64,000 bases of DNA from Vreelandella neptunia (GTDB taxonomy: Bacteria; Pseudomonadota; Gammaproteobacteria; Pseudomonadales; Halomonadaceae). Below, one piece after another: positions 2,862 to 63,410 of the stretch. The stretch's first letter is position 1; each line of letters begins with the position of its first letter. Under the pieces are notes generated by a model. That model saw nothing but the letters and a program-made list of their open reading frames with translations, was not told the origin of the DNA and did no database searches. Location of the stretch: positions 3,534,001 through 3,598,000 of the forward strand of contig NZ_CP140255.1 of the NCBI RefSeq assembly GCF_034479615.1. Direction: 5' to 3'. Both the position numbers and the translations under genes were made by a program.

Positions 2862-3040
2862 AACCAAGTTCCATTGTTAAATAAAATTGCTTCAAAGAAT
2901 TGCCAATAAGAGTGACTCATATGATACGCGTTGCACAGGCAGCCTGCAGAACCAAACTCGACTCTCTTATCACAACAACGCTGCCAACTGAGCGACCAAG
3001 CCGCTACAATAATGGGCTTAGCAACCTGGGCGAGACTCTC

Positions 3041-4000
3041 ATGGCTGTATTTACTCCGCTTAGCGACGCACAGGTCGCCGCGTTTTTAGAAAAATTTGAT
3101 GTGGGCAGTTTTGTTTCCCTTAAGGGAGTCGCGAACGGCACCGAAAATTCGACATTTTTTGTGACTACCGACCACCGCGAGCTGGTGTTAACCCTGTTCG
3201 AACAGGGCGAGCACGCGGAACTGCCGTTCTTTGTCGAACTGCTGGACTACTTGGACGAGCACCGTTTACCGGTGCCCGGCACGATTCACGATCGTGAAGG
3301 GATCGCGCTGCATAGCCTGGAGGGCAAGCCGGCGCTGCTATTTCCGCGCCTGCCTGGCCGCCATCCAGAAGCGCCCAATTTAGCCCAATGCCGTGCCTTA
3401 GGCGATACTTTGGGTCGCCTACACGTGGTCTCAAAACATTTTCCCGGCCACCGCCCCAACCCGCGGGATCTCAACTGGCTGCACGTGATGCACCATAAAG
3501 TTTTGAGTTACCTAAGCCCCGCGGATCAAACGTTGATGAAGGACGAAGTCGACGATTTCGAAAGCGCCTTTATGCAACACGGTGAATTGCCCCAAGGCGC
3601 CCTGCATGGTGATCTGTTTCGCGACAACACCCTGTTTGAGGGTGACCAGCTTGGCGGTATTATCGACTTTTATAACGGCTGCACTGGGGATCTTCTGTTT
3701 GATCTGGCGATTGTGGTCAACGACTGGGCCTCTAATGACGATGGCACGCTCAACGCTGAGCGCTACAATACGCTGTTGAGCGCCTACCTGGCGCGCAGGC
3801 CGTTAACGGCAGATGAACGGGAGCTATGGCCCACCATGCTGCGCATGACAGCACTGCGCTACTGGCTGTCACGCCTGCTGGTGGTCTATGTTGACCCTCC
3901 GGCCCACGATTTGACGCCCCACGACCCCGAGCGTTTTCGAACCATATTAACTGCGCGCATTGCCCACGGTGCACTGCCGCTACCTGAGGTTTCTGCATGA
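3041..4000 (+). CDS. thrB: homoserine kinase, type II (ThrB)
   Basis: This 319-residue protein phosphorylates homoserine in threonine biosynthesis. It belongs to the aminoglycoside-phosphotransferase-like fold used by pseudomonads and relatives, not to the GHMP kinases. The catalytic loop is LHGDLFRDN and the metal site is IIDFYNGC, followed by DLLFDLAIVVNDW. An upstream ATG at 2900 would add about 47 poorly conserved residues; the start at 3041 gives the N-terminus MAVFTPLSDAQVAAFL, typical of the family. Its TGA stop overlaps the speA start by four bases (ATGA), so the two are probably co-transcribed and translationally coupled. Confidence 0.93.
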   Translation: MAVFTPLSDAQVAAFLEKFDVGSFVSLKGVANGTENSTFFVTTDHRELVLTLFEQGEHAELPFFVELLDYLDEHRLPVPGTIHDREGIALHSLEGKPALLFPRLPGRHPEAPNLAQCRALGDTLGRLHVVSKHFPGHRPNPRDLNWLHVMHHKVLSYLSPADQTLMKDEVDDFESAFMQHGELPQGALHGDLFRDNTLFEGDQLGGIIDFYNGCTGDLLFDLAIVVNDWASNDDGTLNAERYNTLLSAYLARRPLTADERELWPTMLRMTALRYWLSRLLVVYVDPPAHDLTPHDPERFRTILTARIAHGALPLPEVSA

Positions 4001-40658: not shown

Positions 40659-40659
40659 T

Positions 40660-47109: not shown

Positions 47110-47196
47110 TTTTATATCCTTAAAGGGCAATATAATTTAAAATTTACAAACAAATCGCCATAAATTTAAAAAAACCGTATAAAGGTTAATGTAAAT

Positions 47197-49098
47197 TTAA
47201 TTGAAATTATTAATAGACACAGCCTTCCATCCCCATTCACTACGTTTTTTATTGAAGGTCAGAAGAGCAACACCTTCCACCAAACCTTCGTCTTTAAGGT
47301 TATGTATTTTCACCAAATCCGGAGGGATAAAAATCTCGGAAGAAGTAAAACCAAGCCCCGTATCATTAATCCTCACTAGCTCCTGAAACTCTTTTCGCAA
47401 TGACTGAGATGCCACTGAGCAGCTCTTTTTCGCTGAAAGCACCCGATATCTGGTTCCATCCTTGGTCGTATACTTGGAGAGTCTGACTAAGATAGAGTCA
47501 CCTACTTTGTACTCTTCATTTAAATTAGAAAAAGGTATAGTTCCGTCAATTTTTGTTTCTACTAGAAAGTGAATTAATTTTTTCTGTTGATTGACGTTAT
47601 CTACTACTCCAATACGCTCGAAGAAAACATCCCATTTTACTTCTGAATTTCGGCTGGAAATTAAATGAATCTGAAATCTATTTTGGGCATCCCACTCACC
47701 TTTAACACGAATTGCACTCCCAGCTAGTGAATTCTGAATATTAAATTTACTTTCAGGAATGACCACTTCTATTGGATCAGAAGCTGTTTTCAGATACAGT
47801 TTCCTTTTCGGCTTGCTTTCTTTTCCTGGAATAGTGAACATTTCTCCAAGATTCGCTGTAATCCATGGGAGCTGACTAAACAAAAGATCCTCTGCTGACC
47901 CTTTTTGGCTGCGATAAAACTCATCATTTGAAGCTAGAATTGATGCATCTAAATACCAATCCTCAGTAATATAATCTTCAATTTCAGCAGGAATTTTTGT
48001 TCCCTCTTTTTGTTTAGCTTCAAGAGTGCGTTTAATCTCATACTTCGCCTCTGGAAACTGGCCTCGTTCAATCATCAGTGTAGCTACTTTTAACCTAATT
48101 TTACTTGAATATCGATCATCCGGTGAACACAAAAGTGCTTTACAATAGCAACTGAGGCTTACTTCATCCCCCTTTTTTGCGGTAATATTACCTAGCAGCT
48201 CCCAGGCCCAGTATTCGTTGGACTTTGCTCTAGTTACCTCAATAGAAAATGCCAAAGCGTCGTCACTTCTATCCAACTCTAAAAGAACTTTAGCTTTATT
48301 CAAAACAAGCCAAATATTGTCTGGATAAGTTGAGATCGCCTTGCCCAAGTAAGGGAGTATATAAACTAGTGAATTCTGATCATTACCTTTGGCAGCATCC
48401 TTGCTGGCCTGCTGAATTACCCTCTCTGCCAGCGCTGGAAGCTCCTTACCGTCATCCGTTTTAAATCGCTCCCAATCTTCTGGACGTAAGAACTCTAGAT
48501 TCCACAACTGACAGAAAGCCGCCATATTAAATCGATCATCACTAGCCAGCTTTGCTGCCACCTGCAGCATCACAGCATGAAGCAGCGATGGCTTTTCAAC
48601 ATTAAGCTTCATATATTGATTAAGATTCTTCTTAATTTTTACGAGGTTATTATCGCCTTTGCTTAACAAGGGCTTTGAAAGACGGTACAGTTCCCAACCG
48701 AACGATATTGATAATTCTGGATCCCCGGGGTTATCTTGTAAGAGCTTCTGATACAGTGCAATGGCATTGTCGTGTTGCCCCGCCTTACTCAACTGTCTGG
48801 CTTCGTTGACGAGTTGACCCTCGGGATTACATAGAGAGATGGCAAGCTGACGCTGTTTAGTTAGCACATCATCGTTCTCGGGCACAGCAATTGCTTCAAG
48901 CTGCTGGCGGTAATGGCTGAGATTAGTCTGCTCTCCTGCTTTAGCGTCCCGCTTAATCAAATCAATCAAGCACCAGCCGAAAGCCCGATCATCCCACTCA
49001 TCTTTATTGGGGACACTCATTCTTTGCAACGCCATTTGATAGGCCTCATCTATCTGGCCAGCTTTCCGCTTCGCAAAAATGTCTTTACTGGTAATCAT
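47197..49098 (-). CDS. TPR-like protein with C-terminal OB-fold-like region
   Basis: This 633-residue protein is not assigned to a named family. Residues 1-400 are alpha-helical repeats of tetratricopeptide type (KAGQIDEAYQMALQRM, AGQHDNAIALYQKLLQDNPG, LGKAISTYPDNIWLVLNKAK, GQFPEAKYEIKRTLEAKQKE). Residues from about 430 are beta-rich with S1/cold-shock-like patterns (GVVDNVNQQKKLIHFLVETK, EEYKVGDSILVRLSKYTTKD), suggesting nucleic-acid binding. The start overlaps the RecD-like helicase gene by four bases. Base composition is clearly more AT-rich than the methylase and the giant helicase. It is likely an adaptor or sensor for the adjoining helicase, an inference from coupling. Confidence 0.75.
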   Translation of the reverse strand: MITSKDIFAKRKAGQIDEAYQMALQRMSVPNKDEWDDRAFGWCLIDLIKRDAKAGEQTNLSHYRQQLEAIAVPENDDVLTKQRQLAISLCNPEGQLVNEARQLSKAGQHDNAIALYQKLLQDNPGDPELSISFGWELYRLSKPLLSKGDNNLVKIKKNLNQYMKLNVEKPSLLHAVMLQVAAKLASDDRFNMAAFCQLWNLEFLRPEDWERFKTDDGKELPALAERVIQQASKDAAKGNDQNSLVYILPYLGKAISTYPDNIWLVLNKAKVLLELDRSDDALAFSIEVTRAKSNEYWAWELLGNITAKKGDEVSLSCYCKALLCSPDDRYSSKIRLKVATLMIERGQFPEAKYEIKRTLEAKQKEGTKIPAEIEDYITEDWYLDASILASNDEFYRSQKGSAEDLLFSQLPWITANLGEMFTIPGKESKPKRKLYLKTASDPIEVVIPESKFNIQNSLAGSAIRVKGEWDAQNRFQIHLISSRNSEVKWDVFFERIGVVDNVNQQKKLIHFLVETKIDGTIPFSNLNEEYKVGDSILVRLSKYTTKDGTRYRVLSAKKSCSVASQSLRKEFQELVRINDTGLGFTSSEIFIPPDLVKIHNLKDEGLVEGVALLTFNKKRSEWGWKAVSINNFN

Positions 49099-51980
49099 GA
49101 ACTCAGCCCCTGTGTCAGCATCACCTCAACATCTGGCAATAAAGATCCTGGGCTACAGGCAGTAATCAATGGCTGGTATTTGGTGAAACGCTTCTTACCA
49201 TCAAAAAATATGTCGCATACCGCCACATCATTACCCCGGGAAAAGCTATAGCGAACATGCCATTGATACTTCTCAGCATTCTGTATGTTGATATCCTGCT
49301 CAGCCGCAAGCGGGAGCAAACGCTGATGAAAATCATTGATGAAATCATCTTCGAAATGAATTTGGTCAGCGGGTATCACAGATCCGACAGCAATTGGCTG
49401 CCCCACCAGCGGAGATAAAAGATTTTGAACATGGACTGCAAGGATTGACGGTATTGTTGCAGTTACATTCGTAATTTTTCCCTTACTATCGTATGCAATA
49501 TTCACCCGCGCATATTCATTGCCCCTATGGAACGTGTACGCTTCCTGATGTTGGTTATGGGCAATAGAGTTGATAGAAATGGTATGATCAACTATCAGTT
49601 CTCGAACCCTACCAAGCACTCCAAGCAGAAATTGCGCTTCTGCAGGGATTCCGTATGTTTCATCAGAACTAATCGGTTCATTTGCTTCGGCAACCGTAGG
49701 TGGTGTCACCATCTCACCTACTCTCAAGTGTTGATCTATTTGGCCAGATTGACTTGCTTGGACACCAGTCCCAGTTGAAAAATTAACTGGTTTTGGCTCC
49801 GAAGTTGGCACACCAAGGCCCGGCCGCCGAACTGATTTCAGTCCGTCACCGATCTTGATGTTCGGTGAGTCAAGTAACCACAAGCGATCTGAGGTCCGTG
49901 TAATCGCTGTATAAAACCAGCGAAAATAATCCTCTGTGAGTTGATTTTGGTTAGTTTTACATTTAACAAACACATTATTCCATTCGCTACCCTGAGCCTT
50001 GTGACAGGTAATGGCATAGCCATATTTCAATCGCAGCGCATTGAAATATGGGTCGGACATTAACGTGTCCTTAAACTCCAAACTGCCGCGTTTGAGGCCC
50101 TTATTGCGCATGCAGAAGTCGACGTACAAAGCTTTGCTCTCATCGGAACTTAACGAAGGCAAATCACTGTATAACAAACTTTCGAATATCTTCGCCTCAA
50201 AGAATTTTGCATTTCCATCGAGATCCCTGAATCCTACAATGACGTCTTTAAAGGCGAGAAAAATATTAATACTTTCGACTTTGCCAGTATCACTATTTCT
50301 TCTTTTGATTGTTACACTACGACTCTCGGTGGCTCCCAGAACCTCTCTAACCAGCCCGAAATCACCATTAGAAATGAAAAATCCGTATGCACTGCTGTTA
50401 CTTACAGCCATAACCTTGTCGCCGGCCTGAACGTGCTCGCGCCCTGGGAAGAAATGCTCCCTGATCCGACGGTTATAGGCCGCAACATCGGCATTTGAAT
50501 AGGCGATCACAATGGACTCACCGTTGATCCTGCCACCACAGGACTCAAGGTACCGATCCATCAAGTTACCATGGCTGACTGGCTGTACGTCCGGTGTACT
50601 GAAATCTACCGAAAGTTGATTAAAAACACGCTTTTTCAACGCATTACGCAACATGATGGAATTCCCCATTACGCCGCTAACTGCCTTTTGCCGTACAACT
50701 TCTGTCAACTCATAGCTGGTTGAGCGTACACTGTGCTTTTTAAGCAAGTAATTCTCGTCCAGCGCCGGAGAGAATGACATACCAACGGGTGGCAGCTGCG
50801 CATCGTCGCCAATAAAGATGACCTTTTTGCTATGATCGTTATGGTCGAGATTTACATACTTCAGAAAGTCTCTGAGCACATACCCCGAGCCGAAGCGAAA
50901 GAACTCCGCTTCACTGTACGCATCAGAAACCATGGATGCTTCATCTACAATGAATATGGTATCAGCTGGAAGCTCATTTACCGCAAGCTCAGCGTAAAAC
51001 TTATAAGTTTCAGTCCCATCAACATCAGCATCTTTATATTCCTGAATATCCTTGAAAGAATAAATGGTTCGATGCAACGTATAAGCATTAGATTTCGTTT
51101 TATTTGCGATAACTTTCGCAGCTTTACCCGTCGGAGCAGCAAGGACATAGTTGCGTCCTATAGATCGGAAATACTCTGTTAATCCCTTGGTAATAAAAGT
51201 TTTACCCGTGCCGGCATAACCACGTAAAAGAAAAGCGCTATCATCGTTTGATGACAAAAATTTACCTAGCTGTTTGATCAGATCAGCTTGGCCATCAGTC
51301 AGGGTATACTCCCCAAATGCATCTTCAATTTTCAGAAGCCTGCGCGTTGCTTCCTCTTCAAGATTTATGTTGCTGGATGCACGGGAAGCAGCATTGCGAA
51401 AAGCTGACAGGCGAGCTTCATCCAGCGATGAGTTCAAATCATCGATTTGGGTACGGGCCTTTGAAGCCTGAATATTGCCGAGCTCCCGCTTAGCTTCCTC
51501 TAACTGCTGTGCCAAGCGCTGGTTTTCCGCATTCAGATCACTTTCGATCTTCTCTGGCGGTACTGGAATAACAAAGTCCGGATACTCGCGACCACCATCC
51601 TCGCTATAAGTAGAAAACAACCACCGTCCGAGCAGATAAGCTTCTTTCAATAGCCGAACAGCTTGCTCATTATTAATGTCACCGCCATGAGCCGCTTTGT
51701 TCCCGTAGCATCGAATAGCATGCAGCTTTTGCCGGATAGGGCTTTCCACAACAGATTCAAATCTTTCAGTCTTCAACTGCTCGAACAGGCCGTCACCAGG
51801 CTCACTTCTCAATTCCAGTTCCTGGTACAACAAGCCGACCAAGGTCTCAATAAAACAGCGTAGCTTTATGGTTGCAGCTGCCGGATCATCATGAACATAG
51901 CTTTCAGCCTGAATCGCGTGCTTGCACAGTTCTGGCCACCTGGATTCTAATTGGCAGAAATTTTGCGATTTGTTGTTCAT
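49095..51980 (-). CDS. DUF4145-like domain fused to RecD/Pif1-type SF1B helicase
   Basis: This 961-residue protein starts with a HEPN-like DUF4145-type domain (DDPAAATIKLRCFIETLVGL, IRQKLHAIRCYGNKAAHGGD; the R-x4-H style motif is not clear-cut). A coiled coil follows at about 150-200, then a RecD-like helicase: Walker A LLRGYAGTGKTFITKGLTEY (near 255), APTGKAAKVIANKTKSNAYT, Walker B IFIVDEASMVSDAYSEAEF (near 343) and YAITCHKAQGSEWNNVFVKC with YTAITRTSDRLWLLD. The final 200 residues are an unassigned domain. It overlaps both neighbours by four bases, so all three are translationally coupled. Similar DUF4145-helicase proteins are found in defence islands. Confidence 0.85.
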   Translation of the reverse strand: MNNKSQNFCQLESRWPELCKHAIQAESYVHDDPAAATIKLRCFIETLVGLLYQELELRSEPGDGLFEQLKTERFESVVESPIRQKLHAIRCYGNKAAHGGDINNEQAVRLLKEAYLLGRWLFSTYSEDGGREYPDFVIPVPPEKIESDLNAENQRLAQQLEEAKRELGNIQASKARTQIDDLNSSLDEARLSAFRNAASRASSNINLEEEATRRLLKIEDAFGEYTLTDGQADLIKQLGKFLSSNDDSAFLLRGYAGTGKTFITKGLTEYFRSIGRNYVLAAPTGKAAKVIANKTKSNAYTLHRTIYSFKDIQEYKDADVDGTETYKFYAELAVNELPADTIFIVDEASMVSDAYSEAEFFRFGSGYVLRDFLKYVNLDHNDHSKKVIFIGDDAQLPPVGMSFSPALDENYLLKKHSVRSTSYELTEVVRQKAVSGVMGNSIMLRNALKKRVFNQLSVDFSTPDVQPVSHGNLMDRYLESCGGRINGESIVIAYSNADVAAYNRRIREHFFPGREHVQAGDKVMAVSNSSAYGFFISNGDFGLVREVLGATESRSVTIKRRNSDTGKVESINIFLAFKDVIVGFRDLDGNAKFFEAKIFESLLYSDLPSLSSDESKALYVDFCMRNKGLKRGSLEFKDTLMSDPYFNALRLKYGYAITCHKAQGSEWNNVFVKCKTNQNQLTEDYFRWFYTAITRTSDRLWLLDSPNIKIGDGLKSVRRPGLGVPTSEPKPVNFSTGTGVQASQSGQIDQHLRVGEMVTPPTVAEANEPISSDETYGIPAEAQFLLGVLGRVRELIVDHTISINSIAHNQHQEAYTFHRGNEYARVNIAYDSKGKITNVTATIPSILAVHVQNLLSPLVGQPIAVGSVIPADQIHFEDDFINDFHQRLLPLAAEQDINIQNAEKYQWHVRYSFSRGNDVAVCDIFFDGKKRFTKYQPLITACSPGSLLPDVEVMLTQGLSS

Positions 51981-53185
51981 TTCGATATCACCCTAAGCCC
52001 TTTCCTCAATAGGACCCGCTCAAATACATAAAGGCCATGTGGTACAAAATCATTCTCTTTAACGAATTTATTGATCTCCTTTTTTCTCATAGGGAGAGGG
52101 ATGAACGAGTCAACTTCTAACTGCTTATCTCTCGCAATTAGCGGAGCGATATCCTTTTCAAAATCAAGCTCAAGCTCGAAAACAGCGGAGACACCTATTT
52201 CGAAGTTATTCATTTCCAAAAAGAAGTCGTAGAAGGCCGCCTTGACTGCAAGCTGGTAAATATTTTCATCAATACCAAGTTCTTCAAGCAGGCCTCGCTT
52301 GAAACAGAGCTCTATATCAACTTTCCCGAAAGGGTCTTTGTCTGTTCTCGAGAGGCCTTCGTTCATCGTGATATGATATTTGGATTTCCCACCGGCAACC
52401 CTCGCCGACCTCTTACTCAGTACCACTTCCTTGCCTTTCCCACCGTCACAAATCAGAAGACAGTTCACTCCAAACGATGTGAAAAATGGTCGATAATTTA
52501 GAAACGTGTCTGAATTCGCTTTGGCTATTTCATGCCCTCTCTCTTTCAGCTCATGGTAGATCGATCGAAAAACCCGGTGCGTAAAATAGTCTGTTTTGAA
52601 AAGATCGATTTCAACGCCGGGATTTTCCTCTTCGCCAAACCGGGTAAATCGAAGGTTGAAAACACCGTATTTGTCACCGTTGAAAATCATTCCCTCAGTT
52701 GCTTCGAGAAACTTTCGCCCCACGAGCACACGGTGTTTTCCTATTAGCTTAGCTAACTCTTCAATTCCGGTGATTTTGACAAGATCATTAAACGAGCTGC
52801 CACCATCAAACGAGGTGTCTTCGTGAAACTCGGTAAACTGGGAATCCATATAACCGAGCTCTTTCTCTTTGGATCGGAGTTCGTCCTTGAGGTGTTTTGG
52901 CATGTTGATATAAAGGCACCGCTTCTCACCAAAGCGCGATATTTCCCGTGAAAAAATGTTCCTTTTTTCAAATTCAGGATCTCCAGTCGCCAGATCAACG
53001 ACGTTGATTGCCTCTTTCTTCTTCCGGTAGGCCAAAATCTCTGAACGAACTCTTCTCCGGAACATTGTCTTGCGAATACCGGCATAAACCTGCTGAATAC
53101 AGAACAAAATGACAGAGCCCACTAGCAGGTAGAACAGCTCCGAAGTGCCATCATTCGTTATCCGGTCAATAAAAGCCTGAAACAT
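51977..53185 (-). CDS. membrane-anchored Nudix-like protein
   Basis: This 402-residue protein has one N-terminal transmembrane helix (SELFYLLVGSVILFCIQQVY, residues 15-34), a basic stretch, a middle region of unknown fold, and a C-terminal domain with a degenerate Nudix box. That box reads HITMNEGLSRTDKDPFGKVD, then ELCFKRGLLEELGID at about 286-300. It keeps the two-Glu core LLEELGI, but the leading Gly-x5-Glu is displaced and the usual Arg-Glu pair is Arg-Gly. It may hydrolyse or only bind a nucleotide derivative at the inner membrane. The start follows the 81-residue gene's TAG directly (TAGATG), with GGAGAAG overlapping that gene's end. It is a candidate effector of the operon. Confidence 0.7.
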   Translation of the reverse strand: MFQAFIDRITNDGTSELFYLLVGSVILFCIQQVYAGIRKTMFRRRVRSEILAYRKKKEAINVVDLATGDPEFEKRNIFSREISRFGEKRCLYINMPKHLKDELRSKEKELGYMDSQFTEFHEDTSFDGGSSFNDLVKITGIEELAKLIGKHRVLVGRKFLEATEGMIFNGDKYGVFNLRFTRFGEEENPGVEIDLFKTDYFTHRVFRSIYHELKERGHEIAKANSDTFLNYRPFFTSFGVNCLLICDGGKGKEVVLSKRSARVAGGKSKYHITMNEGLSRTDKDPFGKVDIELCFKRGLLEELGIDENIYQLAVKAAFYDFFLEMNNFEIGVSAVFELELDFEKDIAPLIARDKQLEVDSFIPLPMRKKEINKFVKENDFVPHGLYVFERVLLRKGLRVISK

Positions 53186-53431
53186 CTACTTCTCCGTTTC
53201 TGAATTAGCAAACGCTACCCAAGCTTTCCGGTACTCTTCTTCCTTGCTCGGCTTAAAGAACGAGGCTTTATATTCCACCGTCCGCTCTACTGGCCTGTCA
53301 GACAAAGCATCGTCTAAGTAAAATTTTATTACCGTGCCCTTGGTCAAGTCCCGCTTACACGCTTTGTTAACCAAGCCTGTATAGCCAACTTGTGTATTGC
53401 TCACTGGCAAACTATCCATGTCGAACCTCAC
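53186..53431 (-). CDS. 81-residue paralogue of the methylase C-terminal tail
   Basis: Residues 31-81 match the last 50 residues of the methylase encoded at 55389-60449. This protein reads GTVIKFYLDDALSDRPVER, TVEYKASFFKPSKEEEYRKA and W; the methylase reads GTVSKTYLDDTLPGGPSER, TVEYKAPFFRPDREEDYRVA and W. The first 30 residues differ. Its start overlaps the 3' end of the DUF262 gene by 20 bases, and it abuts the Nudix-like gene. It is either a functional small subunit that mimics the tail or a leftover of a duplication that placed the DUF262 gene behind the methylase. Conserved reading frame and close packing favour function. Confidence 0.8.
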   Translation of the reverse strand: MRFDMDSLPVSNTQVGYTGLVNKACKRDLTKGTVIKFYLDDALSDRPVERTVEYKASFFKPSKEEEYRKAWVAFANSETEK

Positions 53432-55385
53432 CGATGATTGCGCTCTCGCTCAATTCATCCTTAAACGCCCATCGTTTGCACGCAAAGTCGATCATGCGAT
53501 TCTCTATGCGGTCCAATAGCCGGACATACTGGTTAAACCGTTCTTCATCCTGCACATCAGGGCTGACCCAGTTCGTTGATGCGCCAAACACCTGATTGAA
53601 ATCCTTGATGACCTCAGCTGTTTGGGCAAGGATTGCTCTTTTGGAAGCAGTCTCGTTCTCTTTAAGATGCTTGAGTTTTTCTTCAATCGGCTTGTTGCTG
53701 AAGCTGGCATTCACGCCCCACTCCAACAGCATCAAATTACCGAGCCGACGTTTTTGATGGCTGGTTTTGACTGGATCATGACCATGAAAGGGGCACTGTC
53801 TGGCATAAATATGCTCTATCTGCGCATAGTCATTATGGCGGTTGGCCTTGCTAGCCTTCAGCTGTAGGTCAATGCTGCTGGTGCGAGTCGCGTCTAGCGC
53901 TTGCTCATAATTCGCGAGGAAATAACGTAGACCGCGCCATGTCGCAAAATCCATATTCTGATCAAGTTCACTCAGTCTGAAGCTGGCTTTAAAGGCATCC
54001 AATGTTTTATGGCCATAAGACTTCACAAAACCTAATAGCGAGTTATGACACTCATTGACGGCCTCTTGGATGCTGTGTTTATTGGTGGCTCTGGCGACGT
54101 TGTTATAAACAGCATGTGCAATATTGAAGAGCTGCCCGTGACCACTATCTGCCCGCGCACCACCGACAGGCAGCATATAGACACGGAAATTGACCCGCTC
54201 AATCGCCTGCAGCAGCTCAAGCAAGGCATTAGCTGTAATGTGTTTTTTATCAAACAACCACATACTGCATAGGTACAAGGGGAGCACACCGGAATGAGCT
54301 GTCTGGACCCTGATTAAATCAACAACATCAGCAAGCTTGGCCTGATCGCCAAAAAATGTAGACCGGTGTTGCGACTTTGCATTGAACAGCACTTCGTAAT
54401 AACGCGAACAATCCGACAGAAACTCGACAAACTCTTTCAATTTTTTCGCGTCAGCGTCCCCACCCTTTTGTAGAGAAAAAGCGGATTTAAGCTTGTTATA
54501 GGCAGCGTTGCTTTCTTGTTTTCGGAAGCCGAAATAAACAATCACCGCTGAACGCAGCAGCTGTTGTTTGTCGATATCTGACAGGTGATGCGCGAGCGCC
54601 AAATTCCTAAGAATACGCCCCCACTCCGCGTTGATCGTATCCTGCAAGCCTTTGAATCGTTTTTTGATCGCATAATAGATCAGGTAATTTTTGACCTTTT
54701 CCAACTCGGTCAATGGCTTGCCGCGGTTATTGATTACTTCGAACATCATGCCGGCTTCGTCGGCATTCTGGGGTTGATAGGCAATCATGCCTAAGCGCAT
54801 GGTGACAATATCAACCCATCGAAGGGCCTGATCAGCGCTGTAGGCCGTGCGTTGCGTCCACTCCTCAATCTGCTTATAGGCTTCTATGAGTCGCTTCTGG
54901 GACAAGTACTCGATTGTCTCCTTTTCAGCGTTGCCTTTTAGCAGCGCCCGAAAAAAAGCCTCAATATCGCTGTTGAGCATCAAGACAGGCTGAAAATCTT
55001 TTAATTCTGAACCTCGCCCGATATACGACTGATAGAGGTCAGACTCGCCAGGAGATAACGCAGTGGGGTGTTCAACAACAGTCACCAGAGCATTTATCAA
55101 CATAGTCAAGGTGGTCAGGCGTTGCTGCCCATCAACAATGTCGAAAACGGGGTAGTCAGGCGTGTGATCTGGTCCAGGTACTAATACCAACGTCCCAGTA
55201 TAATGCAAACCACTGCTTTTCGATTCTGCCAAGACCTCAAGATCATCCAGTAGCGCTTTGACCTGTGATCTCTCCCAGGCGTACCCACGCTGGTAGTCCG
55301 GAACGCGAAAGTACCTACCAGGAAACAAGGCCGCCAAGGACGTAAGCGACTGGATAACCTGATCTCCCCTAATCATGGACTGCAT
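53412..55385 (-). CDS. DUF262/DUF1524 (GmrSD-like) nuclease
   Basis: This 657-residue protein has an N-terminal DUF262 domain (YFRVPDYQRGYAWERSQVKA at about 23-42; VFDIVDGQQRLTTLTMLINA at about 80-99, holding the DGQQR motif linked to NTP hydrolysis). A C-terminal DUF1524 HNH-type nuclease follows (YAQIEHIYARQCP near 535, then RLGNLMLLEWGVNASFSNK). The His of EHIY and the Asn residues fit the His-Me finger site. GmrSD-type enzymes cut modified phage DNA, and related proteins accompany methylases. AAGGAG overlapping the methylase end serves the ATG at 55385. Next to a methylase it may be the restricting partner or a guard against modified DNA. Confidence 0.9.
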   Translation of the reverse strand: MQSMIRGDQVIQSLTSLAALFPGRYFRVPDYQRGYAWERSQVKALLDDLEVLAESKSSGLHYTGTLVLVPGPDHTPDYPVFDIVDGQQRLTTLTMLINALVTVVEHPTALSPGESDLYQSYIGRGSELKDFQPVLMLNSDIEAFFRALLKGNAEKETIEYLSQKRLIEAYKQIEEWTQRTAYSADQALRWVDIVTMRLGMIAYQPQNADEAGMMFEVINNRGKPLTELEKVKNYLIYYAIKKRFKGLQDTINAEWGRILRNLALAHHLSDIDKQQLLRSAVIVYFGFRKQESNAAYNKLKSAFSLQKGGDADAKKLKEFVEFLSDCSRYYEVLFNAKSQHRSTFFGDQAKLADVVDLIRVQTAHSGVLPLYLCSMWLFDKKHITANALLELLQAIERVNFRVYMLPVGGARADSGHGQLFNIAHAVYNNVARATNKHSIQEAVNECHNSLLGFVKSYGHKTLDAFKASFRLSELDQNMDFATWRGLRYFLANYEQALDATRTSSIDLQLKASKANRHNDYAQIEHIYARQCPFHGHDPVKTSHQKRRLGNLMLLEWGVNASFSNKPIEEKLKHLKENETASKRAILAQTAEVIKDFNQVFGASTNWVSPDVQDEERFNQYVRLLDRIENRMIDFACKRWAFKDELSESAIIGEVRHG

Positions 55386-55388
55386 TGA

Positions 55389-58300
55389 CTATTGCTCCTT
55401 GTCCTGTTGACTGAAGATCTCCCACGCCACGCGGTAATCTTCTTCCCTGTCTGGCCGGAAAAACGGAGCTTTGTATTCCACTGTGCGCTCTGAAGGGCCG
55501 CCCGGCAGAGTATCGTCTAAGTAGGTTTTGCTTACCGTGCCTTCGGTCATGTGTTGGATATTTTCCCAGCCGAGTGCGACGTTTTGTGTCGTTTGTTCAG
55601 AGGAGTGGATGGCGAAGTGGGTGCCGTCTTTGAGATCGCTGGCGCGAGCCTTGCGCGGCAGGCCGACGCCGGCGATGCCGATGTTGACACTGAAAACAAC
55701 TCGGCCATTTTGGTCATACCAGGTGTCGGCTTCGTTCTGCTGAAGAACAGGGAACTGTACGCGGTAGAGGGTGAGCAGTTCTTCCAGCGTGAGGCCGAGG
55801 GCCTGGGCGACGAGGACGTCGATTTCGACCAGGGCCTGACGGCGGGCGAAATCGGTGCGCAAGGCGTTGTTTCTTTGCCATTCGAGGGTGAGGTTGGCGA
55901 AGAATTCCTGCGGTAGTGCTGCAATGGGTTCTCGGGTGGCCCACTGCTGCTGACGGAAGCTGTCTTGCCAATTGGATTGCCAGAGGTCTGCGTAGTGGTT
56001 GGTAAGGCAGCTTAGCGCCAACACCCTAACAACCATAAATTGAAGCAGACCGAGATTGTTCATAACAGGGAGCCCGCGCAAAGTATTGACCCTTGCATGC
56101 CCCATACCCGTCGTCTTAATGTAGAAATCAATAGGTAGCGACAATCCCGCCGCACTAAAGGCCAAGAGCTCACTGCTATTCAGGAAAGCCGATGAAATTA
56201 CCGTTGATAAATTCCGGGGTCCCGGAGGAACTATCGCTCCGATGAAGGTACGTTCTCCAGACTGGCTCAACATATCGCGACTGACAAAGCGATAATACTC
56301 CGTCACCAATTTTTCTCGATGCTCCCCCTCCTCCACCCACGTCACACGCGGGGTACGGTCACGGTAGGTGGCAGGGTTGCAGGCGGGCACATAGTTGGTA
56401 CGCGGCAGGTAGTCGTCCGGCAGGGTTTGCAGGTCGAGAGGATCGTAAGCCCTTGGTGTATTGCATTCCTGCCGAGGCGTTTTGTAAAGTGGGTTGCCGA
56501 CGAAGAAATGGGGTCCGGAGAGTATCCAATCTTCAGGAAGTTGCGAGAATTTTGTATCCCGCTTGATGGTACCGTCTTTCTGACTTGCAGTTTCATCGAA
56601 CATGTAGCTAGAAAAGTACTCACCTTTCAGATCTGCCAACCGCCGGGGCTGGGCGGCGAACTTATCCAGTACCGCCATCAACTGCCGAGCGTGCAAGGCT
56701 GGCATGCGGGCTTCCAGTGCATCAGTGCCGGCTTCGTCGTAGAGCTGGGCAAACAGGGCCAGTTCGTGCTGGCCGATTTCAATGATGCGGTCGCGGTGAC
56801 CCGCTAACTCCCAGCTCCCCTTTAAACTGTCCCCTTCTCCAATACCGCTTTTAATGCCAGGCACGGGCCCAGCACCACCGCTTTGATAGCACGCATCTAC
56901 TGTTGAGGGGTCGAACACATTTGAAATTGAATCGAATTTTGTTTCATCTCGGCAAGGTCCGTAAATGTTTACCGAAAACTTTACCCATATCATGATTTCG
57001 GCAAAAAGCAGCCGTACGTTGGTGTATTGGAAATGCCTACGAAGACGGTTGTATACCTCCCGCCGGAATCCTCCACCTTTGGGGTCGTCATAAATCCCCT
57101 CCGGATGAAGGAAGCCACTGACGCCCTGTCCGTTCACATTGGCCCAGGCAAGGGGCAGGAAGCATTTATACAGGTTGGCCTTTTGCCCCGCGAGCTGGGG
57201 GTAGTTCTGGGTAGCGTTCAGGAAGGCCTGCGAGCCTTCCGCTTCTGCCAGTTCGGCAAACCAGGCATCCTGCAGTTGTGGGCTACGCTCAAAAGCCGCT
57301 TCGCGCTCATCGGTTAGCTTCTTGGCGCTGAGTTTGTGCAGTACAAAGCGAGGGTTGTAGTCACCCAGCACACCGCCTTCTTGCCATTCCACCTTGCGCC
57401 AAGGCGGGTTGCCCAGGGTGATATCAAAACCGCCGCGGTGGGCAAAAATATCCGCAAAGGCTAGCTCCCAATGGAAGAAGCGGTACTGCTCGTCTAGCTG
57501 GTGGGCAAACTTTAGGTTGGCGAAGAAGGGGTTTTTGAACAGCTTTTCCAGGTTTAGCTCGCCGCGCTGATTGCTGACTTCCCGGGCGGCTTGTGTTTCG
57601 GGGCGGGTTTCGGCACGCAGGGTTTGCTGCAACTCGTCAGCAGCGAACAGATCTTCCACCGGTTTGGCAAAGAAGTTTTCCTGGGCAATAGGCGCGTCTT
57701 CTAGTGCAGCGTCTTCGCCTAGCAGGCTTTCCTGAGCGGGTGCGAAATCGAAAGTGCCTTGGGTATTTAAAATCGTGTTGAGTTCAAACAGCCAGGTGCT
57801 GCGATCGGGCAACTGGTCGACATTTTCCAGCGGCCAGAACCACAGCGCGCACCAGTAATCCATGGCCAGCTTTAAGCGCCGGAATGGCGAGGCAATACGG
57901 GCGTTGGTGTTGAAAATACCCTGGGTGCGAATCGCGTCTTTTTCGTAGGTGCTGGTGTGGTGTAGCACATCACCGGTTTGTCCCCATAAAGGGAATGTGT
58001 CTTCGGTACGCCTTCTGTCTTGCGCCAGCATTTGGGTGTGTTCCCGCCACAGGCGGTCGACGGCTTCACTGAGCAGCTGAAGCGTTTTAATCTCTTGAGC
58101 ATCTAGCGGGGCGCAAAACGCTTTTTGCCACGCTTTAATTTTTTTAAAAGCCTCTGGCCGCAGCTGCTTGGCGGTTCTATCGCTGTACCCCACCATACCG
58201 GGGTCGGGCAGCAGGAAGTGGTAAATTTCATTCGCTTTGCGCCCGTTTGGGGAGCCTTCGCCTGTGGTTGGCGTTTTTCCTGCTAGCAGGCTTTCCGGTG

Positions 58301-60449
58301 CGAGGCGGCGTGGAGCGGTGTTGTACCACAGGCCATCTTTGTGCTGTTTCTTCAGCGCACTGGCGGGGTACACCTCGCGGCGTGCACCGATCAGGCTGTT
58401 GCCGGTAAACAGCTGGTAGCCAAACCAGGGCACGTTGTGGCCGCCACTGAGGGCGTTCAGCCACAACGAGACTTCCGCCAGTTCCACGGCGATAGGGTTT
58501 AAATCCACCCCATAAACGTTGTGGTCGGCGATGTGCATTTTTACCCGTTGCAGCGCCAACGGGTACTCTTCATGGGGTATGCGCTGGTTTAGCTCTTGCT
58601 GTTTACGGGTCAGGTAGGCTTCTGCCAGCTGGTTAACGGCTTCATTCAAGAACGCGGCGCTGCCCATGGCGGGTTCGCAAACCGTCAGGTTAAGAATCTC
58701 GTCGGCGGTAACGTGCTCGGTTAAGCGCTCTTGTAAGGTGTACTTCACCAAGCTTTTGGTTAGCACTTCCGGGGTGTAGTAACTGGCGGATTTTTCCCGG
58801 TCGCGCCCGGCCATGCGGTAGATGAATTTACCCTTTGGGTGAGTCCGCAGGCTAAGTTTTCCTTCTACCTTGTCGTAGACGCGCTCTTTTTCATCGAACT
58901 CTTCAAGCTGCTCGCGAGTGACGAAGTAGCCGGTATCGAGTTCGTCCGGGTTAACGTTCTCGCCTTTGGGGGCTACTTCATAAAGATCTTGGGTGGCGAA
59001 AAAGCCCCGGTAGCTCAGCAGCGCTTCGTACACCGCGCCTAGCTGGTTAATACCGAGCTGGGTGTAACTCACGCGGCCACGGCGTTTGCGGCCCCCTCTT
59101 CCTGACGTACTGGGCCTTGTCAGCGACATGCTCTGAATCACCTGCTGCAGGGTGTCGTTGCTGAAGGTGACTCGGTTGAGCAGCGGCGTTTTAGCGGGGT
59201 CGAACAGGTGGCTGTCTAACCCTTGCAGGGTAAAGGCGTTGGCGGTGCTTTCGTGCAGCTGATCGCCCTGACGGCTGGCGCTGTTGCCGTTATAAATTAG
59301 GCCGAACATGCGCTGCAGGCTGTGGTGAAAATAGTGCCCACGGCGACTTTCTTCGCTGGTTAAGCGCACACTTTCCAGCTCGCGCAGGCTTTCCAGGCTG
59401 TAGCCCATTCGCCAGGTTTCGTCTTCGGCGGGCAGGTAGCCGAGTTCCGGGCGCGCTTCGATATAGAACAGAAACAGAATGCGGTACATGGTGCGCAGGC
59501 ATTCTTTGGATAGCTGGTCGGGGTCTAGCGCGTTGCTACCGCTGTAGATGCCTTCTTTGCGGTCCCGGGCCTGTTCGATGAGTTGTTCGGCGGCTTCGTT
59601 GCCCAGCAGTTCGATGGCCTGGCGCAGGGCGTATTTGAGGTCGTCGGAGACGGCAAAGGCGTGCTTGTGGCTGTTTTCGTCCAGGCTGTCCAGCCGGCAC
59701 TCTCCTTGCTTTCCACCGTTTCCAGGGGGAGCTAGGCTTTCCCGGTGTAGCAGAACCGCGGTGGCTTTTAGGGTTTTGTCCTCCCGGCGGCCAAGAATCT
59801 CTTCCCAGTCAAAGCGCAGCATGCGGTTTTGCGACCACTTGTAGCGGTCAATCAAAATGCCTTGGCGGTCTGAAATCAGCAGCACCCAGCGGGGCGGGTT
59901 TTCGTTATACGGCGCGGCTTGGCGAAACACGGCATCGTTAAGGATGCTGTACCAGCTGGTATTGGTTAGCGCATCACTGTGCGGCCCTTCGCCCAAAAAC
60001 TGGTTGCTGTGCAACTGCAGGGAAAGCGGGTCTTCGCCTTCGTTGTTGGCATCGAGCGCCCCCAGCACCCAAAGCTGTTCACCCAGAGCAGACAGCACCG
60101 GCAGTTCGGTATTCGAGGCTAGCTGGCGGTTTTCCGGCTGGTAGGGAATACCCAGCACGCCCATCAGCGTTTTAAAGAACTCCCGCTGCAAGTGAATGCG
60201 CTCGCGGGTATTACGTTCGGTTTTTAGGGTGTGGCGCAGGGCAAAATAGCGCTGGTTCAGGTTACGCAGGCCGCGGTGAGGGCTTGGCTCTTCCCTGCCC
60301 GCTTGTTTGGCGGCGTCTTCGCGGCTGTTCCACTCTTCAATGGTGTTGGCAAAGTCGCCTTGGAATACTTCTGCTAGGTAGTGCGCGCTGAAGAATTCGT
60401 TGTCGTTGGTTAAGCCAACGAACGTGGCGACGGTTTCTTGTACGGCCAT
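55389..60449 (-). CDS. Eco57I-type adenine DNA methylase, 1686 aa (DrmMI/PglX-like)
   Basis: This large N6-adenine methyltransferase has motif X near 554 (SASYYTPEVLTKSLVKYTLQ), motif I near 591-600 (TVCEPAMGSAAFLNEAV), YGVDLNPIAVELAEVSLWLN near 655 and motif IV near 1015 (DITLGNPPWRKVEW). About 400 residues separate motifs I and IV, far more than usual. The 550-residue N-terminus has no PD-(D/E)XK or DEAD motif I can see; the C-terminal third is probably target recognition. It ends in a tail duplicated in the 81-residue gene. AAGGAG precedes the ATG, 30 bases from the SNF2 stop. It probably marks self DNA; class 1 DISARM and BREX use comparable enzymes. Confidence 0.9.
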   Translation of the reverse strand: MAVQETVATFVGLTNDNEFFSAHYLAEVFQGDFANTIEEWNSREDAAKQAGREEPSPHRGLRNLNQRYFALRHTLKTERNTRERIHLQREFFKTLMGVLGIPYQPENRQLASNTELPVLSALGEQLWVLGALDANNEGEDPLSLQLHSNQFLGEGPHSDALTNTSWYSILNDAVFRQAAPYNENPPRWVLLISDRQGILIDRYKWSQNRMLRFDWEEILGRREDKTLKATAVLLHRESLAPPGNGGKQGECRLDSLDENSHKHAFAVSDDLKYALRQAIELLGNEAAEQLIEQARDRKEGIYSGSNALDPDQLSKECLRTMYRILFLFYIEARPELGYLPAEDETWRMGYSLESLRELESVRLTSEESRRGHYFHHSLQRMFGLIYNGNSASRQGDQLHESTANAFTLQGLDSHLFDPAKTPLLNRVTFSNDTLQQVIQSMSLTRPSTSGRGGRKRRGRVSYTQLGINQLGAVYEALLSYRGFFATQDLYEVAPKGENVNPDELDTGYFVTREQLEEFDEKERVYDKVEGKLSLRTHPKGKFIYRMAGRDREKSASYYTPEVLTKSLVKYTLQERLTEHVTADEILNLTVCEPAMGSAAFLNEAVNQLAEAYLTRKQQELNQRIPHEEYPLALQRVKMHIADHNVYGVDLNPIAVELAEVSLWLNALSGGHNVPWFGYQLFTGNSLIGARREVYPASALKKQHKDGLWYNTAPRRLAPESLLAGKTPTTGEGSPNGRKANEIYHFLLPDPGMVGYSDRTAKQLRPEAFKKIKAWQKAFCAPLDAQEIKTLQLLSEAVDRLWREHTQMLAQDRRRTEDTFPLWGQTGDVLHHTSTYEKDAIRTQGIFNTNARIASPFRRLKLAMDYWCALWFWPLENVDQLPDRSTWLFELNTILNTQGTFDFAPAQESLLGEDAALEDAPIAQENFFAKPVEDLFAADELQQTLRAETRPETQAAREVSNQRGELNLEKLFKNPFFANLKFAHQLDEQYRFFHWELAFADIFAHRGGFDITLGNPPWRKVEWQEGGVLGDYNPRFVLHKLSAKKLTDEREAAFERSPQLQDAWFAELAEAEGSQAFLNATQNYPQLAGQKANLYKCFLPLAWANVNGQGVSGFLHPEGIYDDPKGGGFRREVYNRLRRHFQYTNVRLLFAEIMIWVKFSVNIYGPCRDETKFDSISNVFDPSTVDACYQSGGAGPVPGIKSGIGEGDSLKGSWELAGHRDRIIEIGQHELALFAQLYDEAGTDALEARMPALHARQLMAVLDKFAAQPRRLADLKGEYFSSYMFDETASQKDGTIKRDTKFSQLPEDWILSGPHFFVGNPLYKTPRQECNTPRAYDPLDLQTLPDDYLPRTNYVPACNPATYRDRTPRVTWVEEGEHREKLVTEYYRFVSRDMLSQSGERTFIGAIVPPGPRNLSTVISSAFLNSSELLAFSAAGLSLPIDFYIKTTGMGHARVNTLRGLPVMNNLGLLQFMVVRVLALSCLTNHYADLWQSNWQDSFRQQQWATREPIAALPQEFFANLTLEWQRNNALRTDFARRQALVEIDVLVAQALGLTLEELLTLYRVQFPVLQQNEADTWYDQNGRVVFSVNIGIAGVGLPRKARASDLKDGTHFAIHSSEQTTQNVALGWENIQHMTEGTVSKTYLDDTLPGGPSERTVEYKAPFFRPDREEDYRVAWEIFSQQDKEQ

Positions 60450-60479: not shown

Positions 60480-63410
60480 TTAGGCGTTTTCCCGGGTAAA
60501 CACGGCGATGATCTGAATAAACGGCACCGGCTCGATGGTCAGGGTGTCTTGCACCCAGGTTTCATACTCGTTGAACACCCGTTCGATGCGGTTCAGGCGC
60601 TCTTCCTTGCGGGCGGCTTTAAAGTGTTCGGCCTGGCCGGAGCGCTCTAACTGAAGGCTTAGCTGGTTAACCTGGCGGCTTTTTAGTGCGTTAAGTGCCG
60701 TTAGCTGTTCGGCAAGCTCTGCTTGTTTGGTCGTGGCGTAGGCCTGCTGGCGCTGCTGCATTTCGGCGTTGGCCGCCTGAATCACTGCTGGGCGCAGGGC
60801 TTCTAGTGCGGCTAGATTGATAGGCTGAGCACGGTTGGGCAGTTTGTTGTTCAGTTGCAACAGCTGCAGCCACTCTTCGGCGCTTTGTACTGCTATCACG
60901 CCTTGCGCTTGTGAGGTGCGGCAGCGAATAGCAAACCATTGCCAAATAACCGGGTGGGCTTTGCGGTTAGGGATCAACCCGCTGACGAGAAAGACGCTTT
61001 CATCCGGCTGTAGCGCTTGAGTAACCGCCTGGGTATCTGGCAGGGCAAGCACTGGCGCACTGTGACGGGCTACCTGGGCCAGCAGCTTATCTTCCAACCA
61101 CTGCATGGCGGGGTGCTGGGGCCATAAATAATGCAGCTTGGGCCAGGCATTTTCATCCTGCCGGCTGCGGCGGATCTCGTCTTCAAAGCGGGCTTTATCG
61201 GCCGTGAGAATCAGGCTGCCATCGTGTGGGCGAATTTCTGGCGGTAGAAAGCGAAAGCGGTAATCCAGGTCGTCGGGTGGCGTTAGCGTCAGCGTTTGCC
61301 GCTCTTGGTTGGCGGTAAAGGCCACTTGCTTGCGCTCACGGTTAATTGCCTCTAACGCTTGGTGGGCAAACGCGAAATCACTGGCAAACAGGCTGTAGCG
61401 CTCTGTGGTTTTTTGATGCGTGTGCTGTTCGGCTTCTTCTGCTTTGGGTGTGCTGTCTTCTGGGTTAAGAAACAGCGCCAGCAGGTCGTCGCCTTCGCTG
61501 GTGGCATCGGGTTGGTACTGAGCATCGAAGGCACTGGCATCGGTGCCGGTGGCCATGGCTTCTATGGTCAGGCCTTCTTCGGCTTCGGCATCGTGCACCT
61601 TCATAAAGGTGGCTGGGTCACCGATATTCTTGTAAGCCTGCTCGTCTTTCTCTTTGAGTATTTCAAGAATGCGCTGGTCGCCGCGCACCTGGGGGTTATC
61701 GCTCTGGTTAATCAGGTAGGTAATGATCGGTGTTTCGGTTTGGCCGTAACGGTCTACCCGGCCATTGCGCTGCTGGAATACCATCAGTGACCAGGGCAAA
61801 TCAAAATGCACAAGCCGATGCGACAGGTAGTGCAGGTTAATGCCCTCGCTTGCTACATCAGAGCACAGCAACACGCGCAGCTTGCTTTCCTGTTTACCAA
61901 AGGCTTCTACGATGTCTTGCTGTTCGATATCGCTCATGCCGCCGTGCAGTATTCGCAGGGCATCTTCTTTGAGCTTGAGATCATCCATGAGCTGGCCGTG
62001 CAGCCAGTTAAGCGTTTCGATACGCTCGGAGAAGATCACCAGGCGGTCTTCAGTGTTGGTTTTTTTCCAACCAAAGGCACTGCTTTTCAGCAGTGTGAGT
62101 AGCTCGCGGTATTTGTTGAAATTGTCTGGTGTGACGTTACGCAGCGCTAGCAGCAACGAATGCAGCGATTGAATTTCATGCTGTTCGTCTTCGCTTATCT
62201 GCTGATACTCAGCCCCGCGGCCTTCTAGCTTTTTAATGCGCTGTTCAACCGACACCTTGGCCGCCGCTGGCGAGCTAAACAGGGATTTCTGCAAACCAAT
62301 ACGCACTAGCTGCCCGTTTTTGGTTGCGCTGTGCTCGCCCCTGTAGGTGAAAGGCACCTCTAACAGCGCCTGGTAGGCGGCTTCTTCTTGAGGCGACGCG
62401 TCCAGATAAATATCGTTCACTACCCGCTCTTTGAACTCTTGCTGTACTTGATTGCGGATATCTTTCTTAAAACGGCGAATGACCAAGCCTTTGTCGCGGA
62501 AATCTTCTTTGGCGTAGTCGTCGGGGTCGGAGATCGCCGTGGGATCGAGCATGTTCATCAGGCTAGCAAAAGAACGCGCTTTGCCGTCGTGGGGCGTGGC
62601 CGAAAGCATGATGAGGGAGTCTGACCGCCCTGCCAGCAGCTGAGCCAATTTGGCACGCTGAGAGCTTGAACCGCGCTCTGCTACGTTATGGGCTTCATCA
62701 ATCACAATGATGTCCCAGTAGGCTTGCTCTAAGTGGCGGCGGTATTCGTTGTCTTGCTTGAGGGTGTCGATGGAGATAATCGACTTGTCATAGTAGTAAA
62801 ACGGGTTATGGTTACCCGGAATATTGTTGCGTACCCGCTGTAGACCAGCAGAATCTAGCCGCGTGAGCGGGATGGTAAAACGGTTCCACATTTCTTTTTG
62901 GAACTGGGTCATCATGCTTTTCAGCGTGAGCACCAGGATGCGCTTGCCTTTGCCACGTCGCATTAGCTCGGTCATTAAAATGCCGGCTTCTAGCGTTTTG
63001 CCTAACCCCACCGCATCAGCAATCAGAATACGCTGGCGGTTCTGCTTGAGTGCCTGCAGCGCGGGGTTAAGCTGGTACGGCACAGGGTCCATCGCGGCCT
63101 TGTGGCCCAGGTGAATATTGTCATCTGCTGGGGTGATCTGGCGCAGCTGAGTTTCAATAAACAGGCGGCTTTTTTCAAAGCCTGGGGTCAGGTCCTGCTC
63201 TAAGCAGGTTTCGGCGGGGTCGAGCACGCGAATAGCATCTTCGGCTTCTTCAAGCTGAGTGAGAAAGCGGGCGCTTTTGCCACTGACCAGTTCGGAAAGA
63301 CCATCCACGGTGAGGATATAGCCCCCGTCATCGCTGGCATCCGCGCGGCGAACAATCCATTCACAGTCGCGGATAACCACACGCGCACCGGGGGCGTAGA
63401 GAGCTGACAT
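60480..63410 (-). CDS. SNF2-family helicase (DrmD-like), first gene of the operon
   Basis: This 976-residue protein is an SF2 SNF2/HepA-type DNA translocase. It has motif I LIADAVGLGKTLEAGILMTE (about 130-149), motif II DIIVIDEAHNVAERGSSSQR (near 235), motif III LIMLSATPHDGKARSFASLM, and the C-terminal motor LLCSDVASEGINLHYLSHRL with VFQQRNGRVDRYGQTETPII (near 520-560). The C-terminal 200 residues contain a coiled coil (EQLTALNALKSRQVNQLSLQ). AGGAAA precedes the ATG. It leads the nine-gene unit, and no internal promoter is obvious. A SNF2 helicase placed before an Eco57I-type methylase is the arrangement of class 1 DISARM (drmD-drmMI). Confidence 0.9.
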   Translation of the reverse strand: MSALYAPGARVVIRDCEWIVRRADASDDGGYILTVDGLSELVSGKSARFLTQLEEAEDAIRVLDPAETCLEQDLTPGFEKSRLFIETQLRQITPADDNIHLGHKAAMDPVPYQLNPALQALKQNRQRILIADAVGLGKTLEAGILMTELMRRGKGKRILVLTLKSMMTQFQKEMWNRFTIPLTRLDSAGLQRVRNNIPGNHNPFYYYDKSIISIDTLKQDNEYRRHLEQAYWDIIVIDEAHNVAERGSSSQRAKLAQLLAGRSDSLIMLSATPHDGKARSFASLMNMLDPTAISDPDDYAKEDFRDKGLVIRRFKKDIRNQVQQEFKERVVNDIYLDASPQEEAAYQALLEVPFTYRGEHSATKNGQLVRIGLQKSLFSSPAAAKVSVEQRIKKLEGRGAEYQQISEDEQHEIQSLHSLLLALRNVTPDNFNKYRELLTLLKSSAFGWKKTNTEDRLVIFSERIETLNWLHGQLMDDLKLKEDALRILHGGMSDIEQQDIVEAFGKQESKLRVLLCSDVASEGINLHYLSHRLVHFDLPWSLMVFQQRNGRVDRYGQTETPIITYLINQSDNPQVRGDQRILEILKEKDEQAYKNIGDPATFMKVHDAEAEEGLTIEAMATGTDASAFDAQYQPDATSEGDDLLALFLNPEDSTPKAEEAEQHTHQKTTERYSLFASDFAFAHQALEAINRERKQVAFTANQERQTLTLTPPDDLDYRFRFLPPEIRPHDGSLILTADKARFEDEIRRSRQDENAWPKLHYLWPQHPAMQWLEDKLLAQVARHSAPVLALPDTQAVTQALQPDESVFLVSGLIPNRKAHPVIWQWFAIRCRTSQAQGVIAVQSAEEWLQLLQLNNKLPNRAQPINLAALEALRPAVIQAANAEMQQRQQAYATTKQAELAEQLTALNALKSRQVNQLSLQLERSGQAEHFKAARKEERLNRIERVFNEYETWVQDTLTIEPVPFIQIIAVFTRENA

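Follow-up and report, generated by a model that had tools for sequence, protein, structure and literature searches.

A small open reading frame (ORF) in the genome of Vreelandella neptunia is very probably (about 85%) a displaced armB 3′ end, stranded when a DUF262 gene joined the cargo-collecting ArmB-ArmC junction of an ARMADA type II operon. It lies in a 64,000-nucleotide stretch of contig NZ_CP140255.1, which was analyzed as a whole and is called the window here. Displaced gene ends show where successive insertions adjoin and in what order they came, so that the growth of a defense operon can be read from one genome.

Organization of the locus

An earlier note on this DNA had claimed that the tail of a methylase is duplicated as a separate small gene across a DUF262 gene, and DNA alignment, an independent repeat finder, and a protein match all bear this out. 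The methylase, encoded at 55389 to 60449 on the minus strand, ends with TEGTVSKTYLDDTLPGGPSERTVEYKAPFFRPDREEDYRVAWEIFSQQDKEQ, and the small ORF, at 53186 to 53431 on the same strand, ends with TKGTVIKFYLDDALSDRPVERTVEYKASFFKPSKEEEYRKAWVAFANSETEK; as the note said, it is exactly the DUF262 gene that separates the two copies. Their nucleotide alignment covers 132 bp with a score of 116; 300 shuffles averaged 22 and reached no more than 35. The repeat finder returned the same pair (53218 to 53349 and 55421 to 55552, 72% identical), and the last ~53 codons of the methylase match the small ORF with 57% identity across 53 residues (within-locus E=2e-14). The 4.95-Mb genome holds these two copies and no third.

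The displaced piece (53189 to 53347, minus strand) is homologous to ArmB residues 1634 to 1686 and has a sharp left edge, and the first 25 to 30 codons of the small ORF gave no match to the methylase. It has the same orientation as armB, is 5′ truncated, runs to about the native end, and sits beyond the insert, as a scar should. The listed GTG start at 53431 gives 81 aa; the ATG at 53419 is likelier and gives 77 aa (53186 to 53419). The start overlaps the DUF262 stop (ATGGATAG), and the TAG stop is directly followed by the ATG of a 402-aa gene, with a purine-rich site ahead of that ATG.

From its sequence matches, the locus is classified as an ARMADA type II defense operon, ArmA-ArmB-ArmC-ArmD, with all genes on the minus strand. 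ARMADA type II has been described (Bell et al. 2025 preprint, PMC12458937) as a BrxHII-like ArmA, a PglX-like ArmB, a YprA-like ArmC, and a GajB-like ArmD in strict order. The window has the same four genes in the same order, but ArmB and ArmC are 8.3 kb apart and at least two cargo modules occupy that space, and the portions of that paper available to us mention neither cargo nor displaced ends.

ArmA (60480 to 63410) is a BrxHII/RapA-like SNF2 helicase, also resembling DrmD (PADLOC DrmD, 1.9e-98, and BrxHII, 3.5e-64; Pfam SNF2-rel_dom). Among public contigs it is closest to Marinobacter loci (84 to 85% identity), and it is 95% identical, over the part read, to ArmA of one genome of its own genus. 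ArmB, a 1,686-aa N6-adenine methylase of the PglX/type IIG/DrmMI kind (PADLOC IIG, 1.8e-252, and DrmMI, 2.9e-58; Pfam Eco57I), counts as PglX-like by its Eco57I, DrmMI, and weak PglX matches. At about residues 1141 to 1500, its identity to close relatives falls in blocks to 40 to 55%, with flanks above 80%, as would be expected for exchange of target-recognition domains.

Cargo 1 is a 657-aa DUF262/GmrSD-like protein, also HEC-06-like (53412 to 55385; Pfam GmrSD_N, 1.9e-33, and GmrSD_C, 2.6e-7; PADLOC HEC-06, 3.2e-49). Cargo 2 begins with the 402-aa gene (51977 to 53185), for which there was no Pfam or PADLOC match and no homolog among the other loci collected here; a hydrophobic stretch is visible at its N terminus. 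It continues with a TOTE-type helicase with a TBP domain (PDC-M16A; 49095 to 51980; Pfam TBP-TOTE, 1.6e-37; PADLOC PDC-M16A, E=0) and a TPR and S1/CSD TOTE protein (PDC-M16B; 47197 to 49098; Pfam/PADLOC). ArmC (40660 to 47130) is a YprA/DruE-like helicase with an MZB zinc-binding domain (Pfam DEAD, Helicase_C, and MZB), placed in the ARMADA/Druantia branch of the YprA family by that domain and its DruE-like match (PADLOC DruE3, 5.9e-105). ArmD, a GajB-like UvrD helicase (38538 to 40730; PADLOC GajB, 2e-32), follows ArmC. A second DUF262 gene lies elsewhere in the same genome (G000:C1:3182028-3182747).

The tail is the normal end of ArmB. The live armB 3′ end (55392 to 55550, minus strand) is conserved in 75 ArmB tails, and its last codons carry a Shine-Dalgarno-like site for the next gene. 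In an AlphaFold2 model of ArmB residues 1088 to 1686, the tail forms a beta hairpin followed by a terminal helix, with block pLDDT mostly 90 to 97 and 79 in the last block. The ArmB sequence matched no solved structure. A fold search with the C-terminal half of ArmB returned CamA, M.BseCI, and BrxX at a TM of about 0.4, with BrxX/PglX folds matched weakly and nothing informative on the tail. The earlier note had held that a tail match restricted to this one genome would count against its proposal; a family profile of the tail matched 71 loci in 84,980 species genomes and three loci in viral contigs; within the class it was matched in 7 of 369 genomes, and within the family in 20 of 275. In most of these loci, the tail is the C terminus of an ArmB of ~1,600 to 1,700 aa. 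A search of plasmid proteins with the small ORF gave a single match, a cyanobacterial ArmB.

The ArmB-ArmC junction across loci

The ArmB-ArmC junction of ARMADA type II repeatedly collects extra defense genes. Among 66 loci whose sequence takes in both genes, 18 have them less than 150 bp apart and 48 more than 600 bp apart, with none between. ArmA and ArmB lie less than 150 bp apart in 54 of 59 loci, and the exceptions are mostly split reading frames. Most of the scanned cargo consists of defense genes, including a GajA-like OLD nuclease (L066), a TIR protein (L078), TmtA (L042), PDC-M28 (L022), PDC-M49A (L094), PDC-S68 (L031), and Zorya II (ZorA-ZorB-ZorE in L121; ZorA in L124 and L034); some cargo genes had no match. 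The gap is a searchable pocket for new defense genes, and in the family of the window it holds Zorya II.

In Escherichia coli, the ARMADA II junction has matches in 518 of 5,426 genomes; the 60 matches listed are compact, one with an IS3 insertion. No near-identical strain pair with and without cargo was found, and a search of E. coli for near matches to the window DNA returned none. One locus, L057, has two genes between ArmA and ArmB (2654 to 5010), the sole clear insertion at that junction in the set. ArmA or ArmB frames are split by a frameshift, a stop, or (in L120) an insert in L032, L058, L075, L118, and L120, which may reflect either real decay or sequencing error.

Displaced gene ends in other loci

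Each locus's own ArmB or ArmC was searched by tblastn against its own ArmB-ArmC gap; weak matches with E of about 0.002 to 0.008 (L029, L030, L053, L126, and a second match in L123) were discounted as chance. Displaced armB 3′ ends were found in eight loci (the window, L022, L039, L045, L078, L080, L094, and L121), all downstream and on the same strand. ArmC starts are displaced in L042 (aa 1 to 38) and L066 (aa 1 to 25, 100% identical), and displaced armC fragments occur in L094 and L123. At least one piece was thus present in 11 of 61 cargo-bearing loci (an armB end in 8, an armC piece in 4), and 50 of the 61 have no visible scar. The pieces sit between cargo genes or just ahead of ArmC, the loci span Gammaproteobacteria and Clostridia, and the regions upstream of ArmB held no match to the ArmB tail.

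Five of the eight displaced armB ends are damaged where ArmB itself is intact: stops, frameshifts, or a deletion interrupt those in L022, L078, L080, and L094, and that in L045 is truncated to 35 residues. The copies in the window, L121, and L039 are open. A similar open copy of 74 aa occurs in L043 upstream of a TOTE pair 77% (PDC-M16A) and 66% identical to that of the window, on a contig that stops short of ArmB. Shine-Dalgarno-like sites end the displaced copies in the window, L121, and L043.

A further case with DUF262 is L121, from another genus of the same family. There, ArmB is followed by a DUF262 gene 78% identical to that of the window, at the same 3-bp spacing, and then by a displaced armB end of 118 residues; homology between the window and L121 ends where the DUF262 gene ends. 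The last ArmB codons ahead of the two DUF262 genes are alike (SQQDKEQ and SQQEKGQ), and L119, a closer relative of the window, ends differently. The displaced end in L121 is of the local WETTVEY type, starts at another armB position than that of the window, and is 87.8% identical to armB of L120, 87.7% to that of L122, and 86.4% to its own. Because the displaced end in L121 is of the local lineage and has a different start point, the two junctions look independent. The same DUF262 cargo thus appears, from these comparisons, to have entered twice, each time leaving the local armB end behind. Whether an armB terminus travels with the first cargo gene was examined in six pairs, with a result that is suggestive only.

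Origin of the small ORF

Of the two origins proposed in the earlier note, a cassette inserted by recombination with duplication of the tail is supported by independent cases in other genomes, which include the displaced armC starts in L042 and L066, and a portable docking tag is not supported. We infer the order of events, the recombination route, and a role in translation of the next gene as follows. An older insertion would first have placed the 402-aa gene and the TOTE pair directly behind armB. The DUF262 gene would later have arrived between armB and this older cargo, bringing the extreme 3′ end of an armB with it. Of the two joins of the incoming piece, one would have been to armB through homology and the other within the armB 3′ end, by either one-sided homologous plus illegitimate recombination or a single crossover of a circle, the products of which would look alike. 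Homology-facilitated illegitimate recombination and single-crossover integration, from one-end homology or a ligated circle (PMC3240628), are laboratory processes that give such a layout; for the window, the process is deduced from sequence.

The old armB 3′ end would have stayed behind the DUF262 gene as the small ORF, still supplying a stop codon and a Shine-Dalgarno-like site immediately ahead of the following ATG. Because core genes of the operon nearly overlap, a join inside the armB end that kept both would leave the next gene translatable, and this role in translation may be the reason the small ORF escaped deletion. The 50 cargo-bearing loci with no visible scar and the failure to find a near-identical strain pair with and without cargo speak against this account. 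Against a simple scar, too, the ORF of the window retains an open frame that overlaps the DUF262 stop in the manner of a genuine coupled gene, and the copies in L121, L039, and L043 are open as well.

There is a further reading, compatible with a scar, in which selection keeps the frame and end of the ORF as a translational coupler that drives translation of the 402-aa gene. The overlap of its start with the DUF262 stop, the TAG followed by the next ATG, the purine-rich site, and the similar layouts in L121 and L043 speak for such a coupler, which we nevertheless regard as tentative and rather doubtful: there are three cases only, other scars are broken, and a coupler looks the same here as a recent scar.

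Sequence constraint bears both on the displaced end and on the docking tag. In 75 live ArmB tails, nineteen columns each reach a conservation of 93% or more, and these tails break a mean of 0.28 and a maximum of 3 of them. The small ORF of the window breaks 7 of the 19, and dead copies break 6 (L022) and 7 (L094). Measured against L118, the scar and the live tail have similar pS (0.52 versus 0.50), whereas pN is 0.24 in the scar versus 0.06 in the live tail. Constraint on the small ORF as a methylase tail is therefore relaxed relative to the live copy.

In the docking-tag reading, the hairpin-helix tail is a binding module of ArmB and, standing alone, of another member of the complex, such as DUF262. 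The open frames in the window, L121, L039, and L043, the ordered hairpin and helix in the model, and the recurrence of the same DUF262 gene followed by the tail in two genera speak for a tag. We consider it improbable, as the copy in the window has lost 7 of the 19 conserved columns, the DUF262 gene of L029 (57% identical) lies elsewhere in the gap with no tail after it, the cargo beside the tails varies from case to case, and armC starts are displaced in like manner. The earlier note had named loci with the small gene absent or decayed and the system intact as grounds for rejecting a tag, and both kinds were found: tail-less systems are common, and the copies in L022, L078, L080, and L094 are broken and that in L045 truncated beside an intact ArmB. 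We give equally little credence to the specific version in which the small ORF would be translated into a free ArmB hairpin-helix that binds an ArmB partner and connects the ARMADA complex with the DUF262 effector, its surface having changed to suit the new partner.

Substitutions between copies bear on a tandem duplication of the armB end in place, with cargo later inserted between the copies. In codon tests that are rough for want of codons (18 to 114), dN/dS between copies is 0 to 0.12 across L039, L045, L080, and L094 (0.08 in L039; 0.09 in L094, which is dead; 0 over the short readable part of L080, also dead) and 0.47 to 0.50 in L022, L078, and L121. Such low values are no proof of function, as dead copies show them also (0.09 in L094). 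The mostly synonymous differences fit two armB alleles that diverged as working genes before meeting. Direct orientation of the two copies agrees with a tandem duplication, and the values near 0.5 mean that the copies in L022, L078, and L121 also fit an origin in place. We still judge it very improbable for the window, because the copies in L039, L045, L080, and L094 differ mainly synonymously, with two of them dead, and were thus probably different functional alleles already, and because the L121 copy is as near to the armB of other genomes as to its own.

Some phages integrate in the ends of host genes and duplicate them, and the regenerated gene end with a displaced copy beyond the insert fits such a layout, but insertion of a mobile element at an attachment site in the armB 3′ end is highly implausible: the left edges lie anywhere from about 105 to about 350 bp ahead of the stop, with no constant crossover point, and armC starts are displaced as well, which makes a fixed site unlikely, and Pfam and PADLOC found no integrase or recombinase among the cargo genes of the window.

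Relation to known systems

Defense genes embedded in defense operons are already known; the ARMADA pocket and its gene-end scars are described here. Defense modules between the core genes of another system are the subject of guilt-by-embedding (Payne et al. 2024 preprint, doi 10.1101/2024.01.29.577857, as cited in PMC12988326 and PMC12255303). The DUF262 protein of the window matches HEC-06 and the TOTE pair matches PDC-M16, families that, according to these sources, were named from guilt-by-embedding; here the host operon is ARMADA, and gene-end scars record the insertions. DarTG2 sits between hsdS and hsdR of a type I restriction-modification system, a proposed recombination hotspot (PMC12255303). 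It resembles the window as a foreign defense module at a fixed internal junction and differs in its host system and, in the portion of that source available, in having no displaced gene end. In the limited literature covered, the original embedding preprint aside, we found no earlier report of an ARMADA ArmB-ArmC pocket or of displaced ends.

In TOTE conflict systems and in TALON, TPR-CSD and TBP proteins adjoin a YprA helicase of the ARMADA-like kind (PMC12458937, citing Aravind et al. 2022, from the portions available). The gene content of the window is TALON-like, compared without regard to the NERD nuclease of TALON, but its TOTE pair (47197 to 51980) is cargo inside a complete ARMADA II operon. 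This placement suggests a way in which TALON could have arisen.

ARMADA also appears beside Zorya. Among 15 genomes of the family with ZorA2, an armB tail lies upstream, at up to about 4 kb, in nine; six of these nine are inside an ARMADA operon, and three (G481, G504, and G512) adjoin an armB remnant, the stretch read there containing no live ArmB. An armB remnant likewise precedes the Zorya I loci L136 and L137. Some of the free-standing Zorya loci here may therefore have once been ARMADA cargo that was kept after ARMADA was lost.

The loci concerned form two sets. L121, L122, L123, L124, L126, and L130 have a ZorA-ZorB-ZorE set, or genes of the same sizes, between ArmB and ArmC, assigned to Zorya by PADLOC for the proteins of L121 and L124 and by ZorA2 matches in their genomes for the other four. 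The Zorya II loci L131, L132, and L135 have an armB 3′-end remnant just upstream, with no live ArmB in the stretch read.
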